Shown one piece after another: positions 22,967 to 55,991 of a DNA stretch of 64,000 bases; position 1 is the first letter of the stretch, and every line of letters starts with the position of its first letter. A program made the translations under genes and the position numbers. This DNA is from Clostridia bacterium. Lineage in GTDB: Bacteria > Bacillota > Clostridia > Oscillospirales > Acutalibacteraceae. The notes beneath the pieces were generated by a model. That model saw nothing but the letters and a program-made list of their open reading frames with translations. It searched no databases and had not been told where the DNA came from. The stretch is taken from positions 59,204-123,203 of the forward strand of contig JAFVVQ010000059.1 in NCBI GenBank assembly GCA_017502085.1, given 5' to 3'.

Positions 22967-22985
22967 TATTCAAGGAGGCTTGATT

Positions 22986-31599: not shown

Positions 31600-31600
31600 T

Positions 31601-32877: not shown

Positions 32878-32910
32878 ACCCGTTTAATATTTAAAGAGAG
32901 GATAGATATT

Positions 32911-33282: not shown

Positions 33283-33298
33283 TGGAGGTTAAAGTAAT

Positions 33299-35101: not shown

Positions 35102-35119
35102 TTGAGGAGGCATAATATA

Positions 35120-39276: not shown

Positions 39277-40212
39277 TTATATGTTGGAATACTGATTATT
39301 CTTGATGATTCTGTATGCCTTTATCAGTTCTTCAATGCCATCATCAAGAGAATACCGGGGTCTCCAACCAAGAGCTTCAAGCTTTTCGTTGGAAACGATA
39401 TAATTGCGCTTATCGGGATCTTCGCCGACGGGAGCCTCGATATAGACAAACTTCGGCAGGTGGATTTTGATTTTTTCGCAAAGCTCGATTTTTGAGAGAT
39501 TCGAATCCGAAAGACCGCAGTTATGAGTGCCACCCTCCATTTTTTCGAAATTCTCAATTGCAAACCAGAATGCATTTGCAGCATCCCTGACGTGCAGATA
39601 GTTTCTCTTGAAGCTGCCCTCAAAGATAACAATTGTTCTGTCAAAAACCGCTCTGTAAACGAAATCGTTGACAAGCAAATCCGTTCTCATTCTCGGGGAA
39701 GCACCGAAAAGGGTCGCAAATCTGAATGCAGTTGTACCGCTTTCACTGAGCACTGCCGCTTCAGCCTCAACCTTGCTTTTGCCGTAAATTGAAATCGGCT
39801 TTATAGGGGAATTTTCGGTGCAGAAATTTTCGCCCTCGCCGAGACCGTATCCGCTGTTTGTGCAGGGAAAAATAATTCTCTGCCCCTTCTCTCTCAGACG
39901 AAGAATCATTTTGATTGCGTCGAGATTGATTGAGTATGCCGAACAGGATTCTTTATCGCAGATAGGGAATCCCGCCAAAGCGGCAAGAGGAATGATATAG
40001 TCCTTGCCTTTCATCGCCTCCCTGACCGCATTTTCGTTGCGGGAATCAGCGTTTAAGATATCAAAATTCGGGTTTGAACAACATTCGAGCAAGGAGCTCT
40101 GGTTAAACATAAAGTTATCGAGCACGGTAACCTTGCATCCCTTTGAAAGAAGAAGAGGCACAAGAACAGAACCGATGTAGCCTGCACCGCCCGTAACAAG
40201 AATATTAAGCAT
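39277..40212 (-). CDS. NAD-dependent sugar epimerase/dehydratase (extended SDR)
   Basis: A 311-residue extended short-chain dehydrogenase. NAD motif VTGGAGYIGS (residues 6-15), the SDR-type active site YGKSK near residue 143, FRFATLFGASPRMR and KRNYLHVRDAANAF. It acts on a nucleotide-activated sugar, as epimerase, dehydratase or reductase. It is divergent from radical SAM gene 1 with back-to-back promoters 25 bp apart, suggesting joint control. The sugar is unknown; GDP-heptose made by the enzymes encoded at 50.9-53.5 kb is a candidate. Confidence 0.85.
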   Translation of the reverse strand: MLNILVTGGAGYIGSVLVPLLLSKGCKVTVLDNFMFNQSSLLECCSNPNFDILNADSRNENAVREAMKGKDYIIPLAALAGFPICDKESCSAYSINLDAIKMILRLREKGQRIIFPCTNSGYGLGEGENFCTENSPIKPISIYGKSKVEAEAAVLSESGTTAFRFATLFGASPRMRTDLLVNDFVYRAVFDRTIVIFEGSFKRNYLHVRDAANAFWFAIENFEKMEGGTHNCGLSDSNLSKIELCEKIKIHLPKFVYIEAPVGEDPDKRNYIVSNEKLEALGWRPRYSLDDGIEELIKAYRIIKNNQYSNI

Positions 40213-40364: not shown

Positions 40365-42290
40365 GTGAAAAACATTTATTTTGTTCAGGCGAACAACGTT
40401 TACGGCAACGAGCGTCGATCTGTATATATCCCCTACGCTTCGGGATGCATCGCCGCCTATGCCTTCGATGATAAAAAAATCAGTGAAGTCTGCAAACTCG
40501 CGGGCTTCGTCTATACACATATGCCGATTGCAGATGCAGTTGAATTTTTGCATGACCCGTTTGTCGTTGCTTTTTCTTGTTCCGTCTGGAATTACGAGTA
40601 CAACAAGTCACTCGCAAAGGCAATCAAAAGAAAGCACCCTGACTGCAAAATAATCTTTGGCGGCCACAACGTACTGCGTGATTTCGGCACTTTTGAGGAA
40701 TGTCCCGAGGTCGATTATCTGATCTACCGTGAGGGCGAAGAGGCATTCAAAGCGTTGCTTCTCTGCCTTATTGAAAAAACCTCCCCCGAAAACGTTGAAA
40801 ATATTGCATATAAAAAAGATGGCAAATATATCAAAACCGCTGAAAAGGATTTCTGCCTGAGCGAATATCCTTCGCCCTATCTGACGGGAATTTTTGATTC
40901 CATTACCGACGGCAAAACAAATTTCTCCGCCATACTCGAAACAAACAGAGGGTGTCCCTTCAAATGCGCATTCTGTGACTGGGGTACGCTCGGGAGCAGA
41001 ATCCGTCCTTTCCCGATGGAAAGAATCAGGGCTGAAATCGACTGGATTGCTTCGCACGGCATAGAATACGTTTACTGTGCCGACGGCAACTTCGGTATTC
41101 TTGACCGTGATGAAGAAATTGCGGAATATATTATTTCTTCCAAGAAAAAAACAGGCTTTCCGAAGAATTTCCGTGTCTGCTTCACAAAAAACAGAACGGA
41201 TTTCGTCAAGAAGATATGCACACGGTTCAACGAATACGGTCTCGACAAGGCACAGACGCTCTCCTTCCAGAGCCTTGATCCGACGGTGCTTGAAAATATC
41301 GGCAGAAAGAATATCTCCCTCGACCATTTCAGGGAACTGATGAATGAATACAGCCGTTGCGGCATCTCAACCTCCTCCGAGCTTATTCTCGGTCTTGCGG
41401 GTGAAACGAAAGAAAGCTTCTCAAAGGGCATCTGTAATCTGCTCGAATACGGTCAGCACAAAGCAATTCAGGTATACACCTGTGATTTGCTGCCGAATTC
41501 AGAGATGGGGGCACCCGAATATGTTAAAAAATTCGGCATTGAAACCGTCAGGGCACCGTTCATGCAGGCGCATTGCAGTGCCCTAGAAAAGCACGAAGTT
41601 CAGGAATACAATACCGCTGTCATAAAAACCGATACTCTTCCGACGGAAGCCTGGATTGAATGCGTTGCCTTTGCCTGTCTGATTCAGGCATTCCATAACA
41701 TCGGCTTCTTCAGAACGGTTGCTCTGTGGCTGAGAAACGAGTGCGGCAAAAGTTATTTTGATATTTATTCTGCAACTGAGCATTTTTCAAAACAGAATCC
41801 GAACTCGGCAAACGGCAGTGTCTACCGACTGATCACCGACTTTGCAACGGGTATGTCTCAGGGCAGAAACGGCTGGGCTGTCCCTTGCGAAGGTCTCGGT
41901 GATATATGCTGGCAGTTTGACGAAATATATTTTATGAAGGCTCTTGAAAACGCAGACAGCATTTTTGATGAGCTTGAAGTAATTTTTTCATCCGAATCGG
42001 AAAAAGCCGATGAAATTCACGCGGTTTTTGATTATCAGCGACGCATTCTAAAACGCACTGCTCAGAGCGGAATCAGAATCGAATCGGATTATGATTTCTA
42101 TAACTACTGCAAACGCATCTACGAGGGCAGATACGCTCCCCTTGAAAAGAAAAAAACAATCCTGACCGTCAGCGGCACCGTCCCTTGCGACACACTCCTT
42201 GACTATGCCTGCTCCGTCGTATGGTATGGCAGAAATCAGGCGGCGGCGCTCTGGGCCTCGGATTGTTATTCACCTGAAATCCTTTCATAA
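40365..42290 (+). CDS. Radical SAM protein 1 with B12-binding-like N-domain
   Basis: A 641-residue protein, one of five paralogues here. Residues ~1-140 form a Rossmann-like domain similar to cobalamin-binding domains (VVAFSCSVWNYEYN, IIFGGHNV), but the DxHxxG motif of base-off B12 binding is not seen. The radical SAM core starts at Cys197-Cys201-Cys204 (NRGCPFKCAFCDW), followed by CADGNFG, LSFQSLDPTVLENIGRKN and LILGLAGETKESF. The C-terminal ~250 residues are unassigned, resembling DUF4080, and end VVWYGRNQAA. GTG start with AAGGAGT. This is the only copy on the plus strand, and it has its own promoter and terminator. No reaction can be assigned; methyl transfer, epimerisation or dehydrogenation of a sugar are all possible. 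Confidence 0.88.
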   Translation: MKNIYFVQANNVYGNERRSVYIPYASGCIAAYAFDDKKISEVCKLAGFVYTHMPIADAVEFLHDPFVVAFSCSVWNYEYNKSLAKAIKRKHPDCKIIFGGHNVLRDFGTFEECPEVDYLIYREGEEAFKALLLCLIEKTSPENVENIAYKKDGKYIKTAEKDFCLSEYPSPYLTGIFDSITDGKTNFSAILETNRGCPFKCAFCDWGTLGSRIRPFPMERIRAEIDWIASHGIEYVYCADGNFGILDRDEEIAEYIISSKKKTGFPKNFRVCFTKNRTDFVKKICTRFNEYGLDKAQTLSFQSLDPTVLENIGRKNISLDHFRELMNEYSRCGISTSSELILGLAGETKESFSKGICNLLEYGQHKAIQVYTCDLLPNSEMGAPEYVKKFGIETVRAPFMQAHCSALEKHEVQEYNTAVIKTDTLPTEAWIECVAFACLIQAFHNIGFFRTVALWLRNECGKSYFDIYSATEHFSKQNPNSANGSVYRLITDFATGMSQGRNGWAVPCEGLGDICWQFDEIYFMKALENADSIFDELEVIFSSESEKADEIHAVFDYQRRILKRTAQSGIRIESDYDFYNYCKRIYEGRYAPLEKKKTILTVSGTVPCDTLLDYACSVVWYGRNQAAALWASDCYSPEILS

Positions 42291-42296
42291 AAAGCG

Positions 42297-42329
42297 ACAG
42301 ACCTGCAAGGATAACCCCTGCAGGTCTGT
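42297..42329. terminator. Bidirectional terminator between convergent units
   Basis: Perfect 11-bp stem ACAGACCTGCA with TGCAGGTCTGT, 11-nt loop. TTTTATTTTTT follows on the plus strand. It terminates radical SAM gene 1; the long minus-strand operon ends immediately to the right. Confidence 0.85.
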
Positions 42330-42330
42330 T

Positions 42331-43062
42331 TTATTTTTTCAATATATCCTCTTTCGACATAAATCTGACGTGCAACGCAGTGCGGAGATATTGCGGAATC
42401 TGTGCAAAGGAATTGCTCGATTTACCCTCCTTACGGGAATAGCAATCCGTGGGCAGCTCTTTAAATTTATAACCGAGTCGCAACGGTTTGAGCACCATTT
42501 CAAGAAAAATCGGGAAGTTTGTTTCCTCAAATTCGATTGACTGCAGAATATGTGTCGGAATTATCTGATACGGAATCGTAAAATCCGTCAGGTCGCTCGC
42601 ATAAAGCACTGAAAGAAACTTCTGTGCACAGCTGTTAAGCAACTTTCTGAACTTATTATAACCGTAGAATTTGTTTCCGCCAAGCCATCTTGACGCCGAA
42701 AATATCGTTTCAGGCTCTTTCTTTGCGTTCTCAATCATAACGGGAATCAGACTCAGATCAAGTGCCATATCGGAATCGACAGTTATTACGTGCGAACCGT
42801 TTGCCTTATCGAAAGCCTCGGTAAGGAAACCGAGTTTCTCCCGCTTCTGCAGAAACGTTATGACCTCAACTCCCTCTGTTTCGGCTTCAATTTGTTTTAT
42901 TGTTCCGAGACATTCAGGGGTTGCCCTGTCAGGATATCCGATGATAATCTGCGCTATATCCGACTTTTCACAGTTTGCAAGTATATAATCAATCGTGCCT
43001 TGCAAAGAGCTTGTTTCGGTTACGGCTCCCGTTACTATTGAAACTCCTTTAAATCCATTCAT
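42331..43062 (-). CDS. GT2 glycosyltransferase, dolichol-phosphate-mannose-synthase-like
   Basis: A 243-residue GT-A glycosyltransferase resembling polyprenyl-phosphate sugar transferases. It has SIVTGAVTETSSL, VITVDSDMALD with the metal-binding aspartates, and FTIPYQIIPTHIL. No C-terminal membrane spans, so it may work with separate membrane partners such as those encoded at 53.6-55.9 kb. I prefer ATG 43062, ten bases after AGGGA, over ATG 43071, which abuts that site. It is the last gene of the minus-strand run, after radical SAM gene 2. It may load an activated sugar onto undecaprenyl phosphate. Confidence 0.8.
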   Translation of the reverse strand: MNGFKGVSIVTGAVTETSSLQGTIDYILANCEKSDIAQIIIGYPDRATPECLGTIKQIEAETEGVEVITFLQKREKLGFLTEAFDKANGSHVITVDSDMALDLSLIPVMIENAKKEPETIFSASRWLGGNKFYGYNKFRKLLNSCAQKFLSVLYASDLTDFTIPYQIIPTHILQSIEFEETNFPIFLEMVLKPLRLGYKFKELPTDCYSRKEGKSSNSFAQIPQYLRTALHVRFMSKEDILKK

Positions 43063-43079
43063 ATCAATCATTTCCCTGA

Positions 43080-45005
43080 TCAGATATATTCGGTTTTTAT
43101 TCCGGGATTGATTGTTATTCCGTTCACGCCAAACCAGACCGCTTCAAGAGCATAATCCTTCCAGTTCGTTTGATGTTTCTCATTGTCGACCCTGATCCGG
43201 ATTTTTCTGTTTTCAAGGGGTTTATAAGTACCTGAAAGAATACTATTGAAATAACCGTCCCAATCATAATTGAACTCACTGGCAAAATGATTTTTGAAGG
43301 GAAGCTTGAGCATTGTTTTCTGGAATTTGATGAGTTCTTCAATCATATCATCTTCAACCCCGAGATATCTCATTGATTTTTTGATTTCCCAATAAAATTC
43401 ATCAAGACGGATAATTGTCATAAGATGAGCGACTTTTTTAGTCTGCCAGGTGACGTCACCGAAAACAGGGTGAGACCAGAGTTCAATCGGTTTCTCCTGA
43501 GAAATAGCTTTATAGTAGCTGTAAAGATAGTCATATGCCGGACGAAGAACAGAATCGGGGTTCTTCTTCGCATAACGGATAACCATATTATAGATATCTT
43601 CATACGAAAGTCCTTTTTCATAATGAAGATATATTGCGATATATTTCAGAATTCCGTGATGATGAAGCGATTCTTCCATACAGGTAAAAACATTGCAGGC
43701 AATCCAGTCTTCGGTGCTGAGCGAATTTGAGCCGATGACATAGATTGTTTTTTCCCTGACCTCCTCATCAACCGCACTGTGAGCAAGCAAAACATCAATC
43801 TCCGCCGTTCGGATCCCGTGTTTCTTCATATATTCAGGCTGAGCCATCGGTGAATTGGGCAGAAGTTCGCAGTTATAGACGGTAATCAGTCTGTGCTGAC
43901 CCGCCTCAAGAAGCTTGCCAATGCCTCTGCAGAAGCTTTCATAAGTTTCTCCGGGCAAACCTGCAATAATTTCAGAATAAGTTGTGATGCCCGCCTCGGT
44001 ATAAAGCTTGAGCAGTTCGCTGAATTTCTCCATGCTCATATTCTTTCTGCCGATGTTTTCAAGCACAGTCGGATCAAGACTCTGGAAAGAAAGGGTTGCT
44101 CCCTCTTTGCTCAGGCCGTATTTTTCAAGCTTCGTGCTGATTTCAAACACTCTCTGAGGGTTGTTCATTGCATAGTTTATGCGGAGTCTTTCGGGGTAAC
44201 CTGTTTTTTCTCTTTTCTCAATCAGATAATCAACGATTTCCAGGTCTCTTTCAGCGGCGCCGAAATTAGAATCCGCACCCCAGATGAATTTGACGCCGTG
44301 CTCACTCATCCAGTCGATTTCCGCAAGAACTCTTTCAGTCGGGAAGAATCTGATTTTCGAACTGTTGCAGCCCCAATCACAATATGCACATCTTCTCGGA
44401 CAGCCTCTTGAAGTTTCGATAATCGCATCAAGCTGCATATCGGGATTCTCTTCAAAAATACTGTCAAACCAACCGTTAAGATAAGGCGACGGGTAATCGA
44501 GTCGGCAAAGGATTTCTGTTTCGGTCTTTTTGTTTTCAGTCGCATTGACTCTGTATGAAATATTTGATATTGATGAAAAATCCTTTTCGTCCTTGCAGAA
44601 TTCAAGCAGAAGCGCCTTGAACGCCTCTTCACCCTCACCGTGAACCAGATAATCGATGAAAGGATATTTCTCAAGGAACGAATTATCGGGAGGTACGTTG
44701 TGACCGCCGAAAATGATTATGCAATCCGGATAAGCCTTCTTCACCTTTTCAGCAAGAACAAGGTTATACTGGGTATTCCAGATATAGTTTGAGAATCCGA
44801 TAACAGCGGGATTTTCAAGGCTCTGCACAGCCTCGTCGGTTATTTCTCTTGTGAAAATAAATCTTTTGAAACAATATTCATTTTTTATTTTTTCATCTTC
44901 AAAAGCACATGCGGCGAGAAGAGCGACCGCATACGGAAGATATGCAGCCTTGAAGCCTCTGCCCACATAGGTATTTGAAGCTTGTACAAGATACAAATTC
45001 CTCAT
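43080..45005 (-). CDS. Radical SAM protein 2 with B12-binding-like N-domain
   Basis: A 641-residue paralogue of radical SAM protein 1, which it most resembles: both carry SFQSLDPTVLENIGRKN. Cluster cysteines are Cys202, Cys206 and Cys209 (SRGCPRRCAYCDWG). The second domain marks are WGADSNFG, IIAGLPGETYESF and NCELLPNSPM. It ends AVWFGVNGITI, departing from the WFGRR form of others. ATG 45005 has AAGGAG eight bases upstream. A 136-bp gap upstream contains possible promoter elements (TTGATT then TTAATA on the minus strand), so this gene and the GT2 gene could form a partly separate unit. Confidence 0.88.
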   Translation of the reverse strand: MRNLYLVQASNTYVGRGFKAAYLPYAVALLAACAFEDEKIKNEYCFKRFIFTREITDEAVQSLENPAVIGFSNYIWNTQYNLVLAEKVKKAYPDCIIIFGGHNVPPDNSFLEKYPFIDYLVHGEGEEAFKALLLEFCKDEKDFSSISNISYRVNATENKKTETEILCRLDYPSPYLNGWFDSIFEENPDMQLDAIIETSRGCPRRCAYCDWGCNSSKIRFFPTERVLAEIDWMSEHGVKFIWGADSNFGAAERDLEIVDYLIEKREKTGYPERLRINYAMNNPQRVFEISTKLEKYGLSKEGATLSFQSLDPTVLENIGRKNMSMEKFSELLKLYTEAGITTYSEIIAGLPGETYESFCRGIGKLLEAGQHRLITVYNCELLPNSPMAQPEYMKKHGIRTAEIDVLLAHSAVDEEVREKTIYVIGSNSLSTEDWIACNVFTCMEESLHHHGILKYIAIYLHYEKGLSYEDIYNMVIRYAKKNPDSVLRPAYDYLYSYYKAISQEKPIELWSHPVFGDVTWQTKKVAHLMTIIRLDEFYWEIKKSMRYLGVEDDMIEELIKFQKTMLKLPFKNHFASEFNYDWDGYFNSILSGTYKPLENRKIRIRVDNEKHQTNWKDYALEAVWFGVNGITINPGIKTEYI

Positions 45006-45141
45006 TGTTTTCTCCTTTTTCCCCAACGCACATAATGCAGACATTTCGTGCGCTTTGTCTGTTTTATATTAAAACATTTTTCTCACAAAGAATCAATAGT
45101 CTTCACTGATTTTGCACATAAAGAATTATAATTGTTCAGTT

Positions 45142-47070
45142 TTATCTTTTGTGTTCAATGCAGATATGTTCTCTTGAATTCGTGCAGATTGTTGCACTTC
45201 TCCTTTTACCAAACCAGATGATTTCACGGGCATATTCCGCCCAATCGGAAATCTTCTTTTCAAGAGTTATTGTAAGATGAGTATTAACCTTTTTGAGCGG
45301 CTGATAGTTATCATCGTAAATATTCTGGAAATAAGTGTAAAAATCATAATCCGTTTCTATTTCAACAACCTCGGTACGAGGCAGACGAAGTACGGATTTC
45401 TGATATTTCAGCATTTCGTCAAAAACACATTTTTCAATGCCGAGATTTTCAACAAAACCTTTGATTTCCCTCCAGAAGACGTCTCTGTTATAAATCAGGT
45501 CAAGGAAAATACCCTCTTCAAAATACCATCCGACCTTGCTGAAGATATCCTTCTGATAGCACCAATCCGAAACCTCGGTGTTCTCGGTTTTCCAACGGAT
45601 TTCTTCAAAAAGTTTATAGATATATTTTGTTTCGTCGCTGAAAATATAATCGAGCAGACGGTTATAGAAATCATAATAACTGATGCCGAGTTCATATCTC
45701 GCATATATTGCAAAACAGCGGAGCAGACCGAGATGGTGGAAGCTTTGCAAACAAACCGAAAACATATTCGCCTTGACCCACATTTCCTTGGTCATATCCT
45801 TTGTTTCAACTACTACGTCATAGTATTCCTGCACTCCGTTAAAATCAGCGGGGTAGTGTATTCCGTGAAGCGGCTGACGTTCCCAACGGATTTTATATTT
45901 ATCAACCATTTCCCTACTTGCGATCGGTGCATTGCAATAGACCTGACAGGTATAAACCGTCATTGAGTTATGCTGACCGTTTTCAAGAAGACGGCAGAGA
46001 CCTTTGCAGAAACTGTCATATGATTCACCCGGCAAACCGAGAATAAGCTCCGTATAAGTCGGAATTTTTTCCTCCGCATATTTTGCGGTCAGACCCGAAT
46101 AATGTTCAAGAGTCAGATTCTTTCTGCCGATATTTTCAAGTGTCTGCTCATCAAGTGACTGATAAGCAAGGGTAACGCCTTTGTCGATACCGCTGTGGTT
46201 AAGTATTTTTCCGATTTCAAAAACAGTTTCGTCACTGTTTTTGGCATAGCAGGGCTTGAACACCTGAGGATATCCGTTTCTGCGATTGACCTCAAGAATA
46301 TATTCTGCGGTTTCGATATCTCTTTCTTCTATGCCGAAATTGGCATCGGCGCAATAGCAATAGGGAATTTTATGCTCCGATATCCAATCAATATCACGCT
46401 TTACTCTCTCCATAGGGAAGAGTCTGATTTTTTTGGTGAAACACCAATCACAGAATGCACATCCGTAAGGGCAGCCTCTGTTTGTTTCGAGCGTCGCATG
46501 GAAAGTTATATCGGGATATTTTTCAAGAATACCGTCAAATACTCCCGCCGAATAGGGCGAGGGATAATCGGATATATCGTAGATTTTCTTTTTCTCAGTG
46601 GTAACAATGCCATCGTTATTCCTGAAAGAAATATCGGGAATTGCCGATATTTCTCCGTCACCGTCAAGCGCCTTAAGGAGCATCGCAAACGGCTCTTCGC
46701 CCTCGGAGTGCATCAGCACGTCAATAAACGGATGCTTTTCAAGAAGCGAGGTATCATCGGGCACATTATGACCACCGAAAACAATAACGCATCCGGGATA
46801 TTTTTGCTTGACCATCTCTGCAAGTTTCAGGTTGTACTCCATATTCCAGACATAACAAGAGAAACCCACAACCGCAGGATCCTCAATCATTGCGAACGAT
46901 TCCTCAACCTTATGACGCACGCAGAGGATCTCTGCAAGGTCGTATCTGCTGCTGACTTTCTCATCGCTCCATGAATATGCAGCAAGGCAGCCGGCAGCAT
47001 AAGGCAGATATGCAATCGTTTTGCTGTAGGTTACGTTAACCTGAACGAGATATACCTTCTTATTGTCCAT
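45142..47070 (-). CDS. Radical SAM protein 3 with B12-binding-like N-domain
   Basis: A 642-residue paralogue with cluster cysteines 200, 204 and 207 (NRGCPYGCAFCDWC). The extra Cys210 right after the cluster motif is unique among the five. The following YCYCADANFGIEERD and KGVTLAYQSLDEQTLENIG are closest to radical SAM protein 5. Ends EIIWFGKRRSAT. Its ATG overlaps the end of gene 4 by 11 bp, with GGAGAAG upstream, so translation is coupled. The domain boundaries match its paralogues, so no truncation. Confidence 0.88.
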   Translation of the reverse strand: MDNKKVYLVQVNVTYSKTIAYLPYAAGCLAAYSWSDEKVSSRYDLAEILCVRHKVEESFAMIEDPAVVGFSCYVWNMEYNLKLAEMVKQKYPGCVIVFGGHNVPDDTSLLEKHPFIDVLMHSEGEEPFAMLLKALDGDGEISAIPDISFRNNDGIVTTEKKKIYDISDYPSPYSAGVFDGILEKYPDITFHATLETNRGCPYGCAFCDWCFTKKIRLFPMERVKRDIDWISEHKIPYCYCADANFGIEERDIETAEYILEVNRRNGYPQVFKPCYAKNSDETVFEIGKILNHSGIDKGVTLAYQSLDEQTLENIGRKNLTLEHYSGLTAKYAEEKIPTYTELILGLPGESYDSFCKGLCRLLENGQHNSMTVYTCQVYCNAPIASREMVDKYKIRWERQPLHGIHYPADFNGVQEYYDVVVETKDMTKEMWVKANMFSVCLQSFHHLGLLRCFAIYARYELGISYYDFYNRLLDYIFSDETKYIYKLFEEIRWKTENTEVSDWCYQKDIFSKVGWYFEEGIFLDLIYNRDVFWREIKGFVENLGIEKCVFDEMLKYQKSVLRLPRTEVVEIETDYDFYTYFQNIYDDNYQPLKKVNTHLTITLEKKISDWAEYAREIIWFGKRRSATICTNSREHICIEHKR

Positions 47071-48997
47071 TTTCTGAACTTCTCCGTTTCAAAATCGCTT
47101 GTTTAAAATGAGTAACGGTACCCTCTTTTCTGCTGAACCAGGCGGTGATTCTTGCGAATCTTTCCCAGGAATCATACCTCTGCGCATCAAGATAAACCGT
47201 ATTTTTTTCTTTTTTCAGCACTGCTTTGTCGCCGTCAATACACTTCTCAAAATATGAAATAAAATCATAATCGGAAACAAATAACGTTTCCTCCGAGAAA
47301 GGCTGTCTGATAATACTTTTCTGAAAATGCATCAACGCCTCAAAAATATCGGCATCTATACCGAAACCAAGCAGAAACTCACGCACTTCGGCATAAAAGA
47401 TTTCCGCATCATAGGTGAAGCTGAGGAAAATATATTCCTCAAGCAACCAGAGCACTTTGCCGAACCTGTCATCGCAGACCGTCGGAGTACCCGTTTCCGA
47501 AAGAACGGCATCAAGCTGTTTTTCGATAACTGCAATCGTTCTGCCCGCAACAGTTTCGGTTTTATTATAAAAATTATCTATGAACGAGCAATAGAAATTC
47601 TTGTATGTGCTGAGCCCTTCATTATAAAGATAAAGAGCAAAGAACTCAAGAATACCCATATGATGACAAGCCTGAACAACTGCAGAAAAGATATTCATCT
47701 TTTTCCAGTCATCGGTTGTCATTGAATAAGTAGACGTAACAATCGAGGATTCCTCAAGGATTTCCTCAACGTCGTCAGCCTCTCTGTGCGGCTGATTGAG
47801 AGGAATATGCGAAATACCGATTTTATATTTTTCAACGTAGTCTTTCTGACCCATAATTGCGCAGGGAAGCCACTCACAGTTGTGGATATAAATTGCATTA
47901 TGCTGACCGAGCTCAAGAAGCTTATCGACTGAATCAACAAGACTGTCCTTGGTTTCACCCGGCAGACCAAGGATAAGCTCAGTATAGGTCGCAACGCCCG
48001 CTTCATTATATAATCGCATCAGTTCCGAGAAAAATTCCGTGCTGATATTCTGTCTGCCGATATTTTTCAGCACCTCATCATTCATTGACTGAAACGAAAG
48101 CGTAATTCCCTTACTCAGACCGTTCTTTTCGAGCTTCATTCCGATATCGAACACGTTTTTGCTGCTGTTTTTTTCGTATGACGTCTGAAATTTGACGGGA
48201 TAGCCCGTTTTCTTTTTGGCTTCAACTATTTTATCGGTAATTTCCGAATCTCTGCTGAACATACCGAAATTTGAATCTCCGCCGCCGAGACCGTAAATCT
48301 TATGAGAGCTTATCCAATCAATATCGCCATAAACTCTTTCAAGCGGAAACTTGCGTATTTTTGATTTCATACTGCTCCAGTCACAGTACGCACAGGAATT
48401 CGGGCAGCCTCTTGACGTCTCGATAAGCGCCATAAACTCCTTATCGGGATTTTCGGCAAGAATCGTGTCAAAATATCCGCCCGTATAGGGTGACGGAAAA
48501 TCGCACTCGGTTGAAATCATCTCCGGGTTTGTGAGGATTCCGTCTTTCGTTCTCATTGAGATACCCGGAATTTCAGAGGCATCCTCAAGACCGATGAGCG
48601 CACGCAGAAGACTGCGGAATATCACTTCGCCTTCACCGTGAAGCAGATAATCGATATAGGGGCATTCCTCAAGCATACCGCCGCCGGGAGCTACGTGATG
48701 ACCGCCGAAAATAACGGTGCATTCCGGATACTTTTCTTTTATTCTTCTTGCAACTTCCTTGTTGAAATTGCAGTTCCATATATAAGTCGAAAACGCGACA
48801 ACACTCGGGTTATCGATTTTTTCAAGTATGCGGTCAACACTCTCACGAAGAAAGAAAATTCTTTCAAGGGAATAGTTTTCCGCAACGGCACTGTCTGCAA
48901 AAGCATAGGCTGAAATCTGTCCCGCCGTATAGGGGATATGCGCAGCTTTACCGTATGAATAATTTACCTGAAGAAAATAAATCTTCCGTTTCAACAA
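47060..48997 (-). CDS. Radical SAM protein 4 with B12-binding-like N-domain
   Basis: A 645-residue paralogue with cluster cysteines 198, 202 and 205 (SRGCPNSCAYCDWS). It differs most from the others: FGGHHVAPGGG replaces FGGHNVP, GLGGGDSNFG replaces the CADANFG type, and the tail reads TAWFSRKEGTV. Start is TTG 48997, with AAAGG upstream; a second TTG follows directly. A 37-bp gap separates it from gene 5. The divergence within a shared frame suggests a distinct substrate or position of attack. Confidence 0.86.
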   Translation of the reverse strand: MLKRKIYFLQVNYSYGKAAHIPYTAGQISAYAFADSAVAENYSLERIFFLRESVDRILEKIDNPSVVAFSTYIWNCNFNKEVARRIKEKYPECTVIFGGHHVAPGGGMLEECPYIDYLLHGEGEVIFRSLLRALIGLEDASEIPGISMRTKDGILTNPEMISTECDFPSPYTGGYFDTILAENPDKEFMALIETSRGCPNSCAYCDWSSMKSKIRKFPLERVYGDIDWISSHKIYGLGGGDSNFGMFSRDSEITDKIVEAKKKTGYPVKFQTSYEKNSSKNVFDIGMKLEKNGLSKGITLSFQSMNDEVLKNIGRQNISTEFFSELMRLYNEAGVATYTELILGLPGETKDSLVDSVDKLLELGQHNAIYIHNCEWLPCAIMGQKDYVEKYKIGISHIPLNQPHREADDVEEILEESSIVTSTYSMTTDDWKKMNIFSAVVQACHHMGILEFFALYLYNEGLSTYKNFYCSFIDNFYNKTETVAGRTIAVIEKQLDAVLSETGTPTVCDDRFGKVLWLLEEYIFLSFTYDAEIFYAEVREFLLGFGIDADIFEALMHFQKSIIRQPFSEETLFVSDYDFISYFEKCIDGDKAVLKKEKNTVYLDAQRYDSWERFARITAWFSRKEGTVTHFKQAILKRRSSENGQ

Positions 48998-49034
48998 AAT
49001 TCACTGACCTTTCGGGATTTGCTTTATCGGATTG

Positions 49035-50924
49035 TTATCCGATGTTGTAAAGGGTTGCACCTTTACGCCTGCCGTACCATACGGTTTCTTTGGCAAAGCT
49101 CGGCCAATCCTCATATTTTTTTGCCGCTCTGAAATCATATCTTGTCAGACTCTTTTCAGGCGGAGCAGCATTATCCTTGCCCGCATTTCTGAAATACGTC
49201 ACAAAGTCATAGCCGCATTCGAAATTCTTTCCTTCCTCAAACGGACGCTTGATTGCATTAAGCTGGAAGACAAGAAGCTCATCATAGAGAGAATCGCCCT
49301 TGAACATCGGCTTAACAAATCGGTCAATCAGTTTGCCGAATTCATCAAAATTATAGAGAAATTCAAGGTAGAGACCCTCCTCGAAAAACCACGTCACATT
49401 GCCGAAAACGGGGTTGGAATGATTCCATTCGCCCTCAAGGGAGCCATCAAGCTTTCTCTTGATTTCTCTGAATAGTTCACCCGTCATCCCCTCATCTGCA
49501 AGGCAGAACTCAAGGAGCGACGTATAGAAATCATAGTAATCGATACCGAGTTCATAATATGCATAGATTGCAAAATATCTCAGCAGACCAAGACTGTGGA
49601 AACACTGCAGACAAATCGAAAACAGGTTTGCATAAACCCAGCCCTCACGCGAAAGCGTACTCGTTGAGCGCACCAGATATGAATATTCGGGTATCATATC
49701 CTTCTTGCCGCTTGCGGAATGAATATGGTTGAATTTCACCTTCATCGGCTCAATTTCAAATTTTTTCATATAGTCAGGGTTACACATCGGAGCATTCGGC
49801 AGCAATTCACAATAATAAACGCTGATTGAATTGTGCTGACCCGCACGCAGAAGCTTACAAATGCCCTGACAAAAACTTTCCGCCGTTTCGCCCGGCAGGC
49901 CGAGAATCAGCTCGGAATACGTGGGGATATTCGCCTGAGTATAACTTGTCATCAGGTCGGAGAAATGCTCCATTGTGAGATTTTTACGGTTGATATTTTT
50001 CAATGCCTCATCGCAGAGGGTCTGATAAGCCATCGTTGCGCCCTTATCAATGCCTCTTGAGTTGAGAATTTTTGATATCTGAAAAACTCTTTCCGCACTG
50101 TTTTTTTCGTAGCAGGGACGGAACACCTTCGGAAATCCCGTTGCCTTGTTCAATTCAACAATATATTCGGCAATCTCGATATCACGGTCAAACATACCGA
50201 AATTTGCGTCCGCACAGAAACAATATTCAATCTGATGAGACGATAGCCATTCGAGTTCGCCCTTCACCTTCTCCATCGGGAAAAGCCTCAGCTTTTTGTG
50301 GTTACTCCAGTCACAGTATGAGCAGTTATAGGGGCAGCCTCGGTTGGTTTCGATGATAGTGTCAAACATAGTGTCGGGATTTTTTTCGATTATCGAATCG
50401 AAAACACCCGTCAGATACGGTGACGGATAATTTTCCACCGATTCGGGGCAGTGCGGAGCGGTCAGAATCTTGCTGCCGTCGGTATCACGGAATGCAATTC
50501 CGCAACAATCGCTGAGGTCTGTGCCGTCTTTAAGTGCTGTAAGCAGATTTGCCGTAACCTCCTCGCCTTCCCCAAGAGTGAGGATATCTATATATTCGTT
50601 TTCAAGGAACTCCATTCTGTCCGAAACACTGTGACCGCCGAAAACAATGATGCACTCAGGATATTTTGCCTTGACGGCTTTTGCGAGTGCCTTATTGAAT
50701 TCAACGTTCCAGACATAGGTTGAAAACGCAGCTAAACAAGGAGATTCCATACCGTCAACGATTTTATCAATATCATCACGACGGAAAATAATCTCCCTGA
50801 AATCATATTCTTCTGCAAGTTCAGGTCTGCTCTTGCAATATGCAACAATAGTACCCGTTGCATAGGGCAGATAAACGGATTTATCGAACGCAAACCCTAC
50901 CTGAATGAAATAAACGTTTTTCAA
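49035..50924 (-). CDS. Radical SAM protein 5 with B12-binding-like N-domain
   Basis: A 629-residue paralogue, the shortest, with cluster cysteines 197, 201 and 204 (NRGCPYNCSYCDWS). Strong likeness to protein 3 around FRPCYEKNSAERVF, ILNSRGIDKGATMAYQTL and LGLLRYFAIYAYYELGIDYY. Ends ETVWYGRRKGATL, the fullest form of the shared C-terminal signature. TTG start overlaps the stop of the HddC-GmhB fusion by 4 bp (TTGA), with AGGTG eight bases upstream. This tight coupling ties the radical SAM genes directly to heptose activation. Confidence 0.88.
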   Translation of the reverse strand: MKNVYFIQVGFAFDKSVYLPYATGTIVAYCKSRPELAEEYDFREIIFRRDDIDKIVDGMESPCLAAFSTYVWNVEFNKALAKAVKAKYPECIIVFGGHSVSDRMEFLENEYIDILTLGEGEEVTANLLTALKDGTDLSDCCGIAFRDTDGSKILTAPHCPESVENYPSPYLTGVFDSIIEKNPDTMFDTIIETNRGCPYNCSYCDWSNHKKLRLFPMEKVKGELEWLSSHQIEYCFCADANFGMFDRDIEIAEYIVELNKATGFPKVFRPCYEKNSAERVFQISKILNSRGIDKGATMAYQTLCDEALKNINRKNLTMEHFSDLMTSYTQANIPTYSELILGLPGETAESFCQGICKLLRAGQHNSISVYYCELLPNAPMCNPDYMKKFEIEPMKVKFNHIHSASGKKDMIPEYSYLVRSTSTLSREGWVYANLFSICLQCFHSLGLLRYFAIYAYYELGIDYYDFYTSLLEFCLADEGMTGELFREIKRKLDGSLEGEWNHSNPVFGNVTWFFEEGLYLEFLYNFDEFGKLIDRFVKPMFKGDSLYDELLVFQLNAIKRPFEEGKNFECGYDFVTYFRNAGKDNAAPPEKSLTRYDFRAAKKYEDWPSFAKETVWYGRRKGATLYNIG

Positions 50925-52177
50925 AGCTTTAACACCTGCTCCAAATCTGAAAAGTCCTTGAGACTTTTGTAATATGCCGATGCAATATCGGCAGCATCAG
51001 GCTCGTCCGAGCCGACGAGGATGTTATGTTTTATACCTGCGTTTATACCCGCAAGCAAATCACTGTGTCGGTTGCCGACAGTGAATGAATTTTCCGTATC
51101 AATTTCAATACCGATCTGTGAAAAATCGGCAATCGCTCCGAGAATCATCCCCGCTTCGGGTTTGCGGCACTGACAACTGCATCTGTATTCCTCAATAACC
51201 GCCTGAGGATGATGGGGGCAGTAATAATATCCGTCAAGAACAACGGAATGCTTTTCGCAAAGCAGAGAATCGATATGTCTGTGGAGAATATCGACGTCAA
51301 CAGGCTTATAAAGATTCTTCGCAATCCCCGCCTGATTAGTAATAACCGTTACAAGGTATCCGTTTTTCTTCAGATACGCAACAGCTTCATCCGCACCGTC
51401 AATAAAACGGAAATCACCGACACGGTAAAGGTGATGAGTATCCACGTTAAGTGTGCCGTCTCTGTCGAGAAAAACAGCACGTCTTTTTCTTTTTGATTTC
51501 AGCATCTCCGCCTCGGAATCGGCTCTTGCGAACTCTTCAGGGATACCGATATCAATAAAATATGCATCACTTTCAAACACCCTTACGGGCAGAATGAGAG
51601 TTTCAAGCACCTGCTTTTCAAATGAGAATTTTTCCGTATCAATAAAATCAAGTGCATTTTTATTTATAAAATAAATACCGCCGTTAATGAGCCCCGCACC
51701 CGACGCTCCTTTTTCACAGAAGCCCGTGAGCATACCGTTTTCAATCTGAAGAAAACCTGAACGCTCAACGTTATTTATCGTTTTTGCCGCCAGAGTAATC
51801 GGATAACCCGACTCTCTGTGGATTTTCTGCATTTCAAAAAGGTCAACGTCATAGAAGGTGTCGCCGTTGATAACAACCGCATACTCCTCTCTGCACATTC
51901 CGAGAGCCTTGCGGATTGCTCCGCCCGTACCGAGAGGCGTATCCTCCCTGCAGTAATCAACAACCATTCCTCTGTGCCTGTTGCCGATTGTATTCTCGAT
52001 TTTTTCAGCCATATAACCCGTTGAGATTACAGCTCTGTGAACACCGTTGACATAAAGATAATCGAGAATATAGTGCAGAAACGGTCTGCCTCCGACAGGT
52101 GCAAGCGGCTTTGGCAAATCACTCACACAACCGCTCAGCCTTGTACCGAATCCACCCGCAAGAATAATAGCTTCCAT
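50921..52177 (-). CDS. Fused heptose-1-phosphate guanylyltransferase (HddC) and heptose bisphosphatase (GmhB)
   Basis: A 418-residue two-domain enzyme. Residues 1-~230 are a sugar nucleotidyltransferase (AIILAGGFGTRLSG, LPKPLAPVGGRPFL, VINGDTFYDVD) like HddC. Residues ~235-415 are a HAD phosphatase like GmhB: AVFLDRDGTLNVD, VITNQAGIAK, and zinc ligands in CPHHP and CSCQCRKP. GmhB removes the 7-phosphate of heptose-1,7-bisphosphate and HddC then makes GDP-heptose, so the fusion joins consecutive steps. Starts in a TAATG overlap with the cupin gene. The nucleotide (GDP rather than ADP) is inferred from the HddA-type kinase nearby; a different hexose cannot be ruled out for the first domain. Confidence 0.85.
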   Translation of the reverse strand: MEAIILAGGFGTRLSGCVSDLPKPLAPVGGRPFLHYILDYLYVNGVHRAVISTGYMAEKIENTIGNRHRGMVVDYCREDTPLGTGGAIRKALGMCREEYAVVINGDTFYDVDLFEMQKIHRESGYPITLAAKTINNVERSGFLQIENGMLTGFCEKGASGAGLINGGIYFINKNALDFIDTEKFSFEKQVLETLILPVRVFESDAYFIDIGIPEEFARADSEAEMLKSKRKRRAVFLDRDGTLNVDTHHLYRVGDFRFIDGADEAVAYLKKNGYLVTVITNQAGIAKNLYKPVDVDILHRHIDSLLCEKHSVVLDGYYYCPHHPQAVIEEYRCSCQCRKPEAGMILGAIADFSQIGIEIDTENSFTVGNRHSDLLAGINAGIKHNILVGSDEPDAADIASAYYKSLKDFSDLEQVLKL

Positions 52178-52542
52178 TATCCGTTATCCTCCGCAATGAT
52201 GTCCTTCGTGCCGTCGGGAAGTTCCACTCCCCTGTCATAAAACGCAACGAGAACGGAATCCTCTTCGTAATCGAAGGTGTGAACAACCATCGGCTCTATG
52301 ATGAACATATCACCTTTGACAAAACGGAAAGTCTCTTTTCTGTCGCCGAGCTTTGCCTCAACCCTGAAAGCCCCTTCAACAACGTAGAAGCCCTCCCTGT
52401 TGAGAGCGTGATAATGTCTGCCCCGCTCGACTCCCGCCCTGGAGGTCACGACGTTAATCTGTCTGTATCCCTCCCTGACAAGCTGAACGAGACTGCCTCT
52501 TTCGTCTTCAAAAACAAAGTCGGGTCTGAGAATCTTAATCAT
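52177..52542 (-). CDS. Cupin protein, WxcM/FdtA-like sugar isomerase or epimerase
   Basis: A 121-residue single-domain cupin: FEDERGSLVQLVREGYRQIN, RGRHYHALNREGFYVVEGAF, GDMFIIEPMVVHTFDYEED. The histidines of RGRHYH and VVHTF sit on the expected strands. It resembles the sugar 3,4-ketoisomerase and WxcM-like C-terminal group that act on nucleotide-linked keto-sugars. Start MIKILRPDF at 52542 lies 10 bp after the kinase stop; the ribosome binding site is weak, so coupling is likely. It may alter GDP-heptose or a derivative. A regulatory cupin is the alternative. Confidence 0.75.
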   Translation of the reverse strand: MIKILRPDFVFEDERGSLVQLVREGYRQINVVTSRAGVERGRHYHALNREGFYVVEGAFRVEAKLGDRKETFRFVKGDMFIIEPMVVHTFDYEEDSVLVAFYDRGVELPDGTKDIIAEDNG

Positions 52543-52552
52543 ATACGCACCG

Positions 52553-53530
52553 TCAGTCTTTACAAATAATCTGTGTACCGTCGTTTTCAAATCGGAAACT
52601 TACTTCATACATATCCGAAAGTGCCGAGCGTACACTTGAATGATATTCCTCGGGTACATAGAACAGAAGACATCCGCCTCCGCCCGCTCCGAGAAGTTTG
52701 CCGCCCAAAGCACCTGCATCCACCGCCATCTTATAGCGGGAATCTATATAATCCGACGAAATTCTGCTGTTGATACTCCTCTTGAGAAGCCACGTTTCAT
52801 TGAGCAATCTTCCGAAACTGTCGAGCGAAGCGGAGGGATCAACAAGTATTTTCTCGGCAATTTCCACCATTTTGAGCATCTCGAGAAGCTCTGCGGTTTT
52901 TCCGTACATTGCCGCCTTTGTTGTTTTCTGAATTTCAAACGAAAATCTCGAAAGTCCCGTAAAAAACATCAGCAGATTATTATTGAGCTTCTGCTTTCTT
53001 TCTTCCGAGATATCAACGGGAGAAACGGTATACCCGTTTTCGCTGAAATCAATTCTGTTAAAGCCGCCGAAAGCCGCGGCAATCTGATCCTGAACACCGC
53101 CATCCTCCGCACAGAGAGTGCGTTCGAGATAAATAGCATCATCGGCAAGCTCTCTCTTTGTTTTGGTTATACCCTGCATTGTGTAAAGTGCATTAAGCAT
53201 ACCGACAGAAAAAGAACTGCTCGTACCGAGACCCGTTTTTGAGGGTAGGTCGGCATCGTAATTAAGTGCAATTCTTTCAAGTCCAAGCCACTTCATCGCG
53301 TTGCGGATTGCGGGATGCCTGATTTCATCGACCGAATTAACCTTTTCAATCTGTGCATAGGAAAGTACGGTTTTGAAATCAAAAACATCGGGAATCTCCC
53401 TGACGTTGACGTGGCAGTATTTATCAAAGGTTGTCGAAATAACCGCCCCGCCGTATTCGCGGTAAAACTCAGGGAAATCCGTACCGCCGCCGAAAAACGA
53501 CATTCTGACGGGAGTTTTGGAAATAATCAT
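52553..53530 (-). CDS. hddA: GHMP kinase, D-glycero-D-manno-heptose-7-phosphate 1-kinase-like
   Basis: A 325-residue GHMP kinase with PVRMSFFGGGTDFPEFY at the start, the ATP loop LPSKTGLGTSSSFSVGML (~95-112), QDQIAAAFGGFN and the C-terminal GGKLLGAGGGGCLLF. The FGGGTDFP opening is characteristic of the HddA and related fucokinase-like group; HddA phosphorylates heptose-7-phosphate at C1 in the GDP-heptose route. The neighbouring GmhB and HddC domains support this. The isomerase GmhA is not in the window and would have to come from elsewhere. Confidence 0.85.
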   Translation of the reverse strand: MIISKTPVRMSFFGGGTDFPEFYREYGGAVISTTFDKYCHVNVREIPDVFDFKTVLSYAQIEKVNSVDEIRHPAIRNAMKWLGLERIALNYDADLPSKTGLGTSSSFSVGMLNALYTMQGITKTKRELADDAIYLERTLCAEDGGVQDQIAAAFGGFNRIDFSENGYTVSPVDISEERKQKLNNNLLMFFTGLSRFSFEIQKTTKAAMYGKTAELLEMLKMVEIAEKILVDPSASLDSFGRLLNETWLLKRSINSRISSDYIDSRYKMAVDAGALGGKLLGAGGGGCLLFYVPEEYHSSVRSALSDMYEVSFRFENDGTQIICKD

Positions 53531-53566: not shown

Positions 53567-54640
53567 TTACAGATTGAACTGAGTTGCGGAAGAGAAAATT
53601 TTGCTTACGGAAACAAATTCCATTGTAAACGAAACAAACCAGACAAGTGAAACAACAGCCACAGCGGGATATTTCTTCACGAATTCGCCAAGTGAATTAA
53701 TCGCGATAACAACACTCTTGTCACCCTTAACTTCAAGCGCAAGAAGAACCGCAAGAGGAATAAGATTGAAGCCTGCAATACCGCCCTTACCGACACACAT
53801 CGCCGATGCGAAAACGGATAACACATACGGAATTACAAGCAAAGCAATGATAGCTCCCTTTTCCTTGCCCGAGGTTTTCTTTTCGCTGTAATCGGATTTA
53901 TGCTTTATCACGCTGACGATAACAAAAATCACAATCGCAACAACGGGAAGCGATGCAACAACCGCTTCCGACAGTTTTGAAAACATTTTATATAAAACCA
54001 TACCGTCGGTCAATTTGGCAAAGCTGACAGTGTGACACTCATTGCCGCCGTAAACACTGAACATACCGGCAATTTTCATTGAAATTCTTGCATGATCATC
54101 AATCAGCGAAACAATCGCAACCGAAACCGCTGCCGAAGCTGCTGCACTGATAAACGCTGTAACTTTTTCATCCCAAAGCATAATGAGTGTAACGGCTATG
54201 CCAAGAAAAACATAGCTGAATATTGCACAGGGCATCAGAAACGAGACCAACGCCGCCGAAACAACCGACACCACCGCAATAACTGATTTTTTGCTGACCG
54301 AAAAACATACTGTCATCCACGCAACCGTAATAACAGAGGCAAGTACGTGGAATGCACTGCTGATTGTTGTAACAAAAAACGGATCGGCAACAAGCAGAAT
54401 CACAAGTATCTTTGAGCCGAGTTTTTCCGACGCCTTCGTAACCATCACAGAAAACAGCACTGAAAGTATAAGTGCACCGATTGCGCTCAACAATTCGCTC
54501 ACACCGAACGAAAATGCTGCATGTTCACCGACGCCGAAAAGTTTTTCATAAAACGGCAGTGTAAGTACCGTTTTCATAAACAGAAGTGCCGCAACGGCAA
54601 TTTGTTCAGCCCTTACCGGGCATTTTGAATTTATCTTCAT
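53567..54640 (-). CDS. Polytopic membrane protein of the glycan locus, function unknown
   Basis: A 357-residue protein with about nine to ten hydrophobic segments and short loops. I do not recognise it. There is one longer loop near residues 175-215 (IDDHARISMKIAGMFSVYGG then ECHTVSFAKLTDG) and a basic stretch KHKSDYSEKKTSGKEKG that should face the cytosol. Start ATG 54640 has GAGGGAT just upstream. It follows the other membrane protein of the run by 27 bp. A GT-C glycosyltransferase, polymerase or flippase-like role would fit the operon, but no motif proves it. Confidence 0.65.
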   Translation of the reverse strand: MKINSKCPVRAEQIAVAALLFMKTVLTLPFYEKLFGVGEHAAFSFGVSELLSAIGALILSVLFSVMVTKASEKLGSKILVILLVADPFFVTTISSAFHVLASVITVAWMTVCFSVSKKSVIAVVSVVSAALVSFLMPCAIFSYVFLGIAVTLIMLWDEKVTAFISAAASAAVSVAIVSLIDDHARISMKIAGMFSVYGGNECHTVSFAKLTDGMVLYKMFSKLSEAVVASLPVVAIVIFVIVSVIKHKSDYSEKKTSGKEKGAIIALLVIPYVLSVFASAMCVGKGGIAGFNLIPLAVLLALEVKGDKSVVIAINSLGEFVKKYPAVAVVSLVWFVSFTMEFVSVSKIFSSATQFNL

Positions 54641-54667
54641 GATATCCCTCATTTTTTGGGTATTTGA

Positions 54668-55891
54668 TTAAATGAACATTCCGTTCATAAAAATTGCAAA
54701 ATAGATTACGATACAAGCTGCCACAACAGTATGCGATTTGCAGTAATCTCTGACTCTGCCGATAACCGTCATAACAGATTCATTCTTGGTTGCAACAAAA
54801 TAGAGGATGAGACACGCCTGAACAACGTAGCTGTAGAAGAAAAATCTTGATCCCCATCCTAAAAATATCGGGCAAATTAACGTTACCATTGTTGCAGGGC
54901 AAAGGAAGAAAACAAATTTCTCGAACACATTGCTTTCAACCTTTATAACCTTCACCCAGAAAGCCGTCAGAAGAGCAAGCAATGGAACAGAAAAAGTAAT
55001 TCCGTTGCTCAGAAGTATCGCACCGTGGTTTCCATTAATCACCAAATCTTCAAACATGGCTTTTACCAGAGCAAAATCTTTCTTTTCAAAATATTCAACA
55101 AGCTGCACATTCACCAATGTTTCAATTTTTGAAGGCATCAGAGGCTCACTGTATCGTCTGAAATAAAAATCAAGCAATTCATATTCATCCGCGAATCCGA
55201 GTCTGGAACTTGAACTGACGGAATAAAGCCCAAGCGCAATCATACCGACATATGCAATTGCACATATGATAACGTTCTTTTTTGATGCTCCGCTTTCAAC
55301 ACATTTCTGAAGCAGGATTATCGAAATAAGAAACATCGCACCAAGAAGGAACACGGGATTTACAAGCGTTGCAATAAAGCAGAAAACGGGTGCAAGCCAG
55401 ATTCCGACTTTGAATTGCGAAAAATAGACTGCAAAAAGAGCGAACGCCCAAAAGAATTTATCAACTCTCATCTCTGTGAAAAAACTTCTGAAAGTAAACG
55501 GAGCTATACAGAGAATTGCAACAAAAATCGCCGCCAACTGAAAAGCATCGCGGTCATCTCTCGTTTTGTCGAGTGCACTGCCGAAACAAAGAGTCGCCGC
55601 AATGAGCAGAAGCACCGAACCGATATTAGTTACCAGCATAATGATATCCGGTGTCAGAGTCGGCACAAACCAACTGATAACCTCACCGATGAAGCCCTTC
55701 GAGTTAAAACCGTGGTCGTAAGTAAAAAGATATTGTAATTCATAATACCCTCTTGAAAGCTCGACCTTATCCGCAGCTATGATATAAATCAAATATGCTG
55801 CAAGCACCGTAAACGGTGCAAGATAGCAGAAAAGCTTCGAACGGAAAAAGCTTTCTTTATTCAGGGTTAAGTTGCTTTGATTGTTTTTCAA
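54668..55891 (-). CDS. Polytopic membrane protein, possible glycan polymerase or GT-C enzyme
   Basis: A 407-residue protein with about ten membrane spans. It is first in the ten-gene minus-strand run. A conserved-looking extracellular loop (YELQYLFTYDHGFNSKGFIG, residues ~52-71) carries Asp and His, and a second large loop lies around residues 220-290 (FYFRRYSEPLMPSKIETL). That plan is like Wzy/EpsG-type polymerases and GT-C enzymes, but I see no diagnostic motif. Start is TTG 55891, eight bases after GGAGGTG. It has its own promoter at 55963-55991. Confidence 0.65.
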   Translation of the reverse strand: MKNNQSNLTLNKESFFRSKLFCYLAPFTVLAAYLIYIIAADKVELSRGYYELQYLFTYDHGFNSKGFIGEVISWFVPTLTPDIIMLVTNIGSVLLLIAATLCFGSALDKTRDDRDAFQLAAIFVAILCIAPFTFRSFFTEMRVDKFFWAFALFAVYFSQFKVGIWLAPVFCFIATLVNPVFLLGAMFLISIILLQKCVESGASKKNVIICAIAYVGMIALGLYSVSSSSRLGFADEYELLDFYFRRYSEPLMPSKIETLVNVQLVEYFEKKDFALVKAMFEDLVINGNHGAILLSNGITFSVPLLALLTAFWVKVIKVESNVFEKFVFFLCPATMVTLICPIFLGWGSRFFFYSYVVQACLILYFVATKNESVMTVIGRVRDYCKSHTVVAACIVIYFAIFMNGMFI

Positions 55892-55962: not shown

Positions 55963-55991
55963 ATTATATCAAAAGTAATGCTAAAAGTCCA
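55963..55991 (-). promoter_or_regulatory. Promoter of the heptose-radical SAM operon
   Basis: Minus strand TGGACT (55991-55986), 17-bp spacer, TATAAT (55968-55963) in the extended form TGATATAAT. It is the only good promoter seen before the ten-gene run 55891 to 42331. Confidence 0.7.

Follow-up and report, generated by a model that had tools for sequence, protein, structure and literature searches.

To our knowledge, the B12-dependent radical S-adenosylmethionine (SAM) methyltransferases characterised so far mostly carry out single tailoring steps in the making of scarce natural products. The substrates on which TokK and CysS act iteratively are bound to pantetheine, whereas the locus described here holds five paralogs of their type, R1–R5 (six in some relatives), in a setting of guanosine diphosphate (GDP)-heptose genes with no carrier protein nearby. 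It lies in a stretch of 64,000 nucleotides, called the window below, from a Clostridia bacterium of the Acutalibacteraceae (assembly GCA_017502085.1, contig JAFVVQ010000059.1, positions 59,204 to 123,203). It is probable that this member of the gut Clostridia makes a surface sugar in which several carbons that are otherwise unreactive carry methyl groups.

TokK, CysS and KedN5 share with R1–R5 a CX3CX2C motif, a tryptophan below the cobalt and a second tryptophan two residues past the last cysteine, and the three-domain fold of that branch is also predicted for R5. Sugar carbons are the targets of MoeK5, GenK and GenD1, which as far as we know involve neither a multi-paralog set nor a heptose. 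Their cobalamin-dependent radical SAM methylations belong to the moenomycin and gentamicin pathways (accessible text of PMC8992657) and resemble the chemistry predicted for R1–R5. For the sugar itself the comparison is the capsular heptose pathway of Campylobacter jejuni, where the main text of PMC10680097 has no occurrence of 'C-methyl' and its accessible passages contain no radical SAM step. That pathway has a C3/C5-epimerase and a C4-reductase; neither was identified within our window, in which a cupin is present. For export, the GT-C glycosyltransferases that take a lipid-phosphate sugar donor (ALG, PMT, PimE, ArnT) may share their fold, by prediction, with a candidate membrane protein of the locus, which also has a GT2 partner but, unlike them, matches no Pfam family.

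Family, fold and cofactor residues

An earlier note, made from the DNA alone, had described five paralogous B12-dependent radical SAM enzymes, four in tandem and one facing them. The list of open reading frames (ORFs) places them exactly so, one on the plus and four on the minus strand, and all five frames are open. Each protein matches both the B12-binding and the Radical_SAM Pfam families, two of the ten matches falling marginally below cut-off (R3 Radical_SAM, 28.8 bits for a cut-off of 29.5; R5 B12-binding, 30.1 for 32.1). The top NCBIfam model for all five is KedN5 (NF033712) at 228–263 bits, under its cut-off of 700, and judged by these scores R1–R5 are relatives of the KedN5 subfamily and not members of it. 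Among PDB entries R5 matches TokK (E 3.1e-90) and CysS (E 7.5e-53) in sequence, and its predicted structure, the only one of the five modelled, aligns along the entire length of TokK with the same three domains. The Foldseek lists used here hold high-ranking matches only, and the absence of other folds from them carries no meaning.

Specific residues agree with this assignment. R1–R5 all keep the C-x3-C-x2-C cluster, FGGH, the CDW tryptophan and the tryptophan of the C-terminal tail without change, and CX3CX2C and the counterparts of both cofactor tryptophans (TokK W76 and W215) are present in all five. Across an alignment of 146 relatives the three cysteines are kept in every row, as is W72 (TokK W76), while W206 (TokK W215) is kept in 145; the cofactor roles of these tryptophans come from the accessible text of PMC9692996 and PMC12846815 on TokK and CysS. 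The W(F/Y)GRR-type tail of the earlier note holds for its tryptophan but not for what follows, which reads GRN, GVN, GKR, SRK or GRR. By sequence, by the fold predicted for R5 and by the cofactor residues, R1–R5 thus appear to be TokK/CysS-type enzymes, in line with the B12-dependent radical SAM identity first proposed, and would be expected to transfer methyl groups.

Pairwise identities among the five are 34.5–46.6%, highest for R3 and R5. Ratios of nonsynonymous to synonymous substitution rates (dN/dS) for ortholog pairs are ~0.06–0.11 where measurable (R1, R3, R4 and R5, all with dS >1; there is no value for R2). Recent duplication with relaxed selection, the pattern of near-identical copies that the earlier note had said would tell against it, is ruled out by the identities, the dN/dS values and the tree described below. 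The five-enzyme set is not a chance feature.

The structural matches of R5 also include OxsB and AprD4, and this bears on another reading, in which mixed radical chemistry (methylation, ring contraction, epimerisation, dehydration) acts on the heptose to give one heavily remodelled sugar, as those two enzymes do on theirs. A CrtI-like flavoprotein in 4 of 51 tabulated loci, joined by an FdR-like reductase in three of the four, would suit such chemistry, but we consider it improbable. The flavoprotein genes stand in or beside arrays at L118 16678–19277, L127 5906–8478, L131 2359–5119 and L070 8813–11391; the 2Fe-2S/FAD reductase-like protein accompanies three of them, and the neighbour in L070 has only 25% identity.

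Ancient clades and nearly complete sets

Relatives were taken as the best 80 of at least 560 confirmed, and the tree kept 146 of 211 proteins of 560–730 residues. Left out were 39 rows whose match to R1–R5 was weak or which were shorter than 590 residues, and 26 rows of L040, L041, L052, L053, L065, L072 and L075, judged duplicates of contigs from the genus; also removed was a branch of length 10 in a first tree, made up of radical SAM proteins from another class. In the 146-row tree R1–R5 fall in separate, ancient clades, each with members from distant contigs, and a hypothesis placing the five in one clade is rejected (approximately unbiased test, p-AU 2e-59). The tree strongly supports R3 and R5 as sister clades, as the earlier note had paired them, but its grouping of R1 with R2 is poorly supported and R4, which it had singled out as divergent, is not unusually so. 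A sixth clade, F, joins the group of R2 and extends the described set, since relatives often carry such a sixth member. No F gene was found in the window's own genome, whose assembly (66 contigs) is 84.5% complete; such a gene could be absent from the assembly.

The same division is seen far from the window. A distant Clostridiales metagenome contig, L047, carries five array copies in a single run, in the order GT2, five array genes, RmlD-like short-chain dehydrogenase/reductase (SDR), HddC-GmhB, HddA and Cj1427-like SDR, with every gene in the same orientation. Of the five array genes, four group singly with R4, R5, R3 and R1, and a single clade for the five is rejected (p 9.8e-6). The remaining gene joins the R2/F group, assigned to neither R2 nor F, in a later tree as well, and was counted as R2 in the pair count, the column analysis and the sugar-pathway tally.

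Genomes seldom carry two copies from one clade. Of 154 pairs within genomes just 2 are same-clade pairs, where 5000 shuffles average 26.0 and never fall below 12; here each named contig stood for one genome, and the count omits the 10 rows of the outgroup and every row with the label 'other'. Adding the remaining loci of the genus gives 8 of 242 (shuffle mean 38.7, minimum 23), with newly fetched rows classed by best hit and four rows moved into the R1 clade, as in the 146-row tree, which was also done for the columns and the sugar-pathway tally. Gene fragments at the ends of contigs figure in five of the eight (one each in G006 and G014, three in G032); the others are a pair of F genes in G008 and, in G011, one pair each of R1 and R4 genes. 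In two metagenome assemblies (L045 with L062, L048 with L071) the sets on two contigs complement each other, one contig carrying R1 and R5 and its partner F, R3 and R4, and merging these contigs adds no same-clade pair to the first count.

Six genomes (G017, G020, G022, G023, G028, G036) have exactly one gene from each of the six clades, and in G020, G022 and G036 the set is dispersed over two or three places. Retention of the whole set even where its genes have moved apart speaks for a distinct and needed task for each enzyme. Incomplete sets also occur: G007 has three clades, and G002, G004, G010, G014, G031 and the window's genome are without one or two. Most of these are incomplete assemblies, yet G007 is rated 100% and G031 97% complete. 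The enzymes are specialised into ancient, mostly non-redundant clades, and near one-of-each sets per genome bear out the view that they were specialised rather than redundant. In G023 (contig C6; L116 3259–19659 and L117 502–8686) we also observed eleven radical SAM genes in ~25 kb: six of array type, three for proteins of 490–506 residues with B12 domains, and two for proteins of 611–612 residues with a radical SAM domain at ~338–496 and a large N-terminal part that matches no Pfam family.

Only four alignment columns (236, 271, 373 and 620) are at least 80% conserved within at least five of the six clades while showing at least three residues between clades. By pairwise alignment, columns 236 and 271 are F238 and S273 of CysS, which lie beside or are bonded to the substrate in the CysS structures (accessible text of PMC12846815). 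The gate position of CysS, W271, is column 269 and is mostly R, K or Q, and its W188 is column 188, variable in part even within clades. The cofactor positions, unlike the clade-separating columns, do not vary.

Sugar genes and the probable substrate

We compared 60 genomes: the window's own, 36 others of the genus and 23 from other genera of the order. The array occurs in 20, all within the genus (E 1e-60), where the other 17 of 37 genomes give no match, and GT2 in exactly those 20 (threshold 1e-20, weakest E 2.6e-21). HddA is found in 15 and the Cj1427-like SDR in 17, every one of them an array genome, so the link to glycan genes and the co-occurrence with hddA that had been proposed are both seen. 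The array genomes without the SDR are G013, G030 and G033, and for G013 and G033 the fetched array region carries a fucokinase/GDP-fucose pyrophosphorylase-like (FKP) gene. A sample of 391 genomes from the class has matches at E 1e-100 in two, the window's own being one (at most three candidates scored per genome). Among 39 stretches with at least two array genes, GT2 is present in 24, HddA in 11 and FKP in 5; the GT2 and GT-C tallies used an identity limit of 22% and those for other genes 30%. The array is linked to GDP-heptose and lipid-carrier genes.

Which clades are present follows the sugar pathway. For loci with a visible activation pathway, and with the reservation that their ancestry is shared, clades R1–R5 or F take in all 43 rows found in 11 HddA loci but just 1 of 19 rows from 5 FKP loci, the other 18 being in other clades. 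Parallel arrays of other clades stand beside an FKP-like gene in L132, L133, L057, L064 and L091, and in these FKP-type arrays a second sugar may have, as it were, its own radical toolkit. In an alphaproteobacterial outgroup (L077, 4840–13690) a single relative lies beside HddA-, HddC-, GDP-mannose 4,6-dehydratase- and RfbH-like genes, all matched under the NCBIfam cut-offs. This gene set resembles the C. jejuni set for GDP-3,6-dideoxy-heptoses (accessible text of PMC10680097), and the locus is possibly a dideoxy-heptose pathway.

The enzyme family is tied to GDP-sugars in two phyla, and this is our main reason for taking the substrate to be a sugar or its lipid-linked form rather than a pantetheine-bound unit. 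The opposite case, in which a carrier- or coenzyme A-bound acyl or small-molecule unit is modified and then decorates the glycan, draws on the pantetheine-linked substrates of both solved close relatives (accessible text of PMC12846815). Besides the clade pattern just described, it has against it that the genome's two PP-binding matches are on contig C22 and not on C62, in an assembly of the completeness given above, and we regard it as very improbable.

A stronger contender, though still an unlikely one, is that the enzymes are glycan C-methyltransferases, each with its own target sugar within a repeat unit, or on a later lipid-linked oligosaccharide, and with one methyl per sugar. Several multi-span membrane proteins accompany the arrays, and some genomes have the set spread over two or three places, both of which would fit. 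L047 speaks against it: its five copies from different clades are accompanied by a single GT2 and only one sugar-activation pathway that can be seen, although the locus is cut at both ends. An RmlD-like SDR is present in L042 as in L047. Four GT-C-like membrane proteins lie in tandem behind an array gene in L046 (11948–16988).

Locus layout and proposed pathway

Table 1. Features of the array locus, in window coordinates.
Feature	Position	Strand	Evidence
Cj1427-like dehydrogenase (SDR)	39277..40212	-	PDB 6vo6 E 2.3e-107, residues 3-310
R1, B12-binding radical SAM enzyme, TokK/CysS-like	40365..42290	+	PF02310, PF04055; KedN5 263 bits; own clade
Terminator-like 15-pair stem between R1 and minus-strand run	42297..42329	-	terminator scan
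GT2 glycosyltransferase, dolichyl/polyprenyl-phosphate sugar synthase type	42331..43071	-	PF00535; DPM synthase 5mlz E 1.1e-5
R2, B12-binding radical SAM enzyme	43080..45005	-	mechanical ORF to 45044
R3, B12-binding radical SAM enzyme	45142..47070	-	domain matches, own clade
R4, B12-binding radical SAM enzyme	47060..48997	-	domain matches, own clade
R5, B12-binding radical SAM enzyme, structure modelled	49035..50924	-	domain matches, fold
HddC-GmhB fusion (heptose-1-phosphate guanylyltransferase + heptose bisphosphate 7-phosphatase)	50921..52177	-	NF049965, TIGR00213
Cupin, possibly sugar epimerase/isomerase	52177..52590	-	PF14667, PF07883; Cap5F cupin part E 2.1e-4
HddA-like D-glycero-D-manno-heptose-7-phosphate kinase	52553..53530	-	NF049969 131.8 bits; PDB 4n3o E 3.2e-34
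Multi-span membrane protein, ~10 predicted spans	53567..54652	-	hydropathy count; no Pfam match
GT-C-like membrane glycosyltransferase candidate	54668..55891	-	predicted fold; no Pfam family
Promoter-like site upstream of ten-gene minus-strand run	55963..55991	-	promoter scan, weak

The listed ORF of R2 has 654 residues (43080–45044), and its probable start at 45005, preceded by AAGGAG, gives 641. The HddA-like kinase is under the NF049969 cut-off of 600 and matches the heptose kinases of the PDB at E ~3e-34; the HddC-GmhB fusion has 189 bits to NF049965, under the cut-off of 300, and 156.9 bits to TIGR00213 (GmhB), above the cut-off of 149.6. We take PDB entry 6VO6 to be Cj1427. The terminator scan found 34 sites where shuffles give 17.7, the stem after R1 being the longest listed, and the promoter scan was weak overall (37 sites, 33.9 expected). 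At the Rfam gathering threshold the window has only one match, a tRNA, and no cobalamin riboswitch at the locus; one riboswitch is found in the same genome on contig C8.

Within the ten-gene minus-strand run the gaps are at most 136 bases, with 182 bases upstream of the first gene. Such gaps speak against the precursor of a ribosomally synthesised and post-translationally modified peptide (RiPP), although no search aimed at short peptides was made, and the array is surrounded by glycan genes. B12 radical SAM enzymes also methylate peptides, and RiPP models match weakly; of all the readings considered here, peptide modification is nonetheless the one we would give the least credence.

Elsewhere in the window, a series of genes for iron-sulfur proteins (29988–36871) looks, on reading the sequences, like an operon for an NADH-linked [FeFe]-hydrogenase. 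An N-acetylmannosamine-6-phosphate epimerase-like gene and a ROK kinase (56609–58185) are divergent from the array run. Contig C35 of the same genome (G000; 22920–23846) has another, distant B12-radical SAM-like match with 105 bits to KedN5.

On this evidence we lean slightly toward a locus for the synthesis and export of a glycan building block that contains heptose and bears methyl groups at several unactivated carbons. The Cj1427-like dehydrogenase would oxidise C4 of the heptose. Each of R1–R5 would use SAM twice, methylating cob(I)alamin with one and forming a 5'-deoxyadenosyl radical with the other, and would abstract hydrogen from its own carbon and transfer the methyl there, the two-SAM mechanism being that reported for TokK and CysS (accessible text of PMC9692996 and PMC12846815). 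The substrate would be GDP-heptose, its 4-keto form, or a polyprenyl-phosphate or oligosaccharide form; GT2 would load the sugar onto the lipid carrier and the GT-C-like protein would transfer it outside the cell. Methyl transfer, the sugar as substrate, the positions, their order and the final glycan are all what we infer.

Several points weigh against this pathway. Five methylations on one heptose are without precedent known to us. For some of the enzymes the radical chemistry may be of another kind, or the target another residue in an oligosaccharide. All functions of the R1–R5 family are predicted from sequence, TokK and CysS take pantetheine-linked substrates and not nucleotide sugars, and the HddA and HddC scores are well below the curated cut-offs. 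Among the 39 stretches, 23 show neither HddA nor FKP and 15 no GT2, many of them being partial, and since related species share ancestry the linkage counts are not independent events. Five methylations on a single sugar is the bold reading, with spread over an oligosaccharide and mixed chemistry as live rivals. The wider proposal, that the members of a conserved six-enzyme toolkit (here five) work together to make a heptose with several C-methyl groups, and that a second GDP-sugar has toolkits of its own in parallel, we put forward tentatively, as plausible but somewhat short of probable. Neither a multiply C-methylated surface heptose of this kind nor, in titles and abstract openings, such a locus was found described in the literature searched, which covers subscription journals sparsely.

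If the proposal is true, the conserved set of five or six enzymes in gut Clostridia would make B12 radical methylation a way in which bacteria produce their surface sugars. Ready-made sets of C–H methylation catalysts, with specificity differing at a small number of mapped positions, would come with it, as would a link from B12 to the gut bacterial surface that can be tested.

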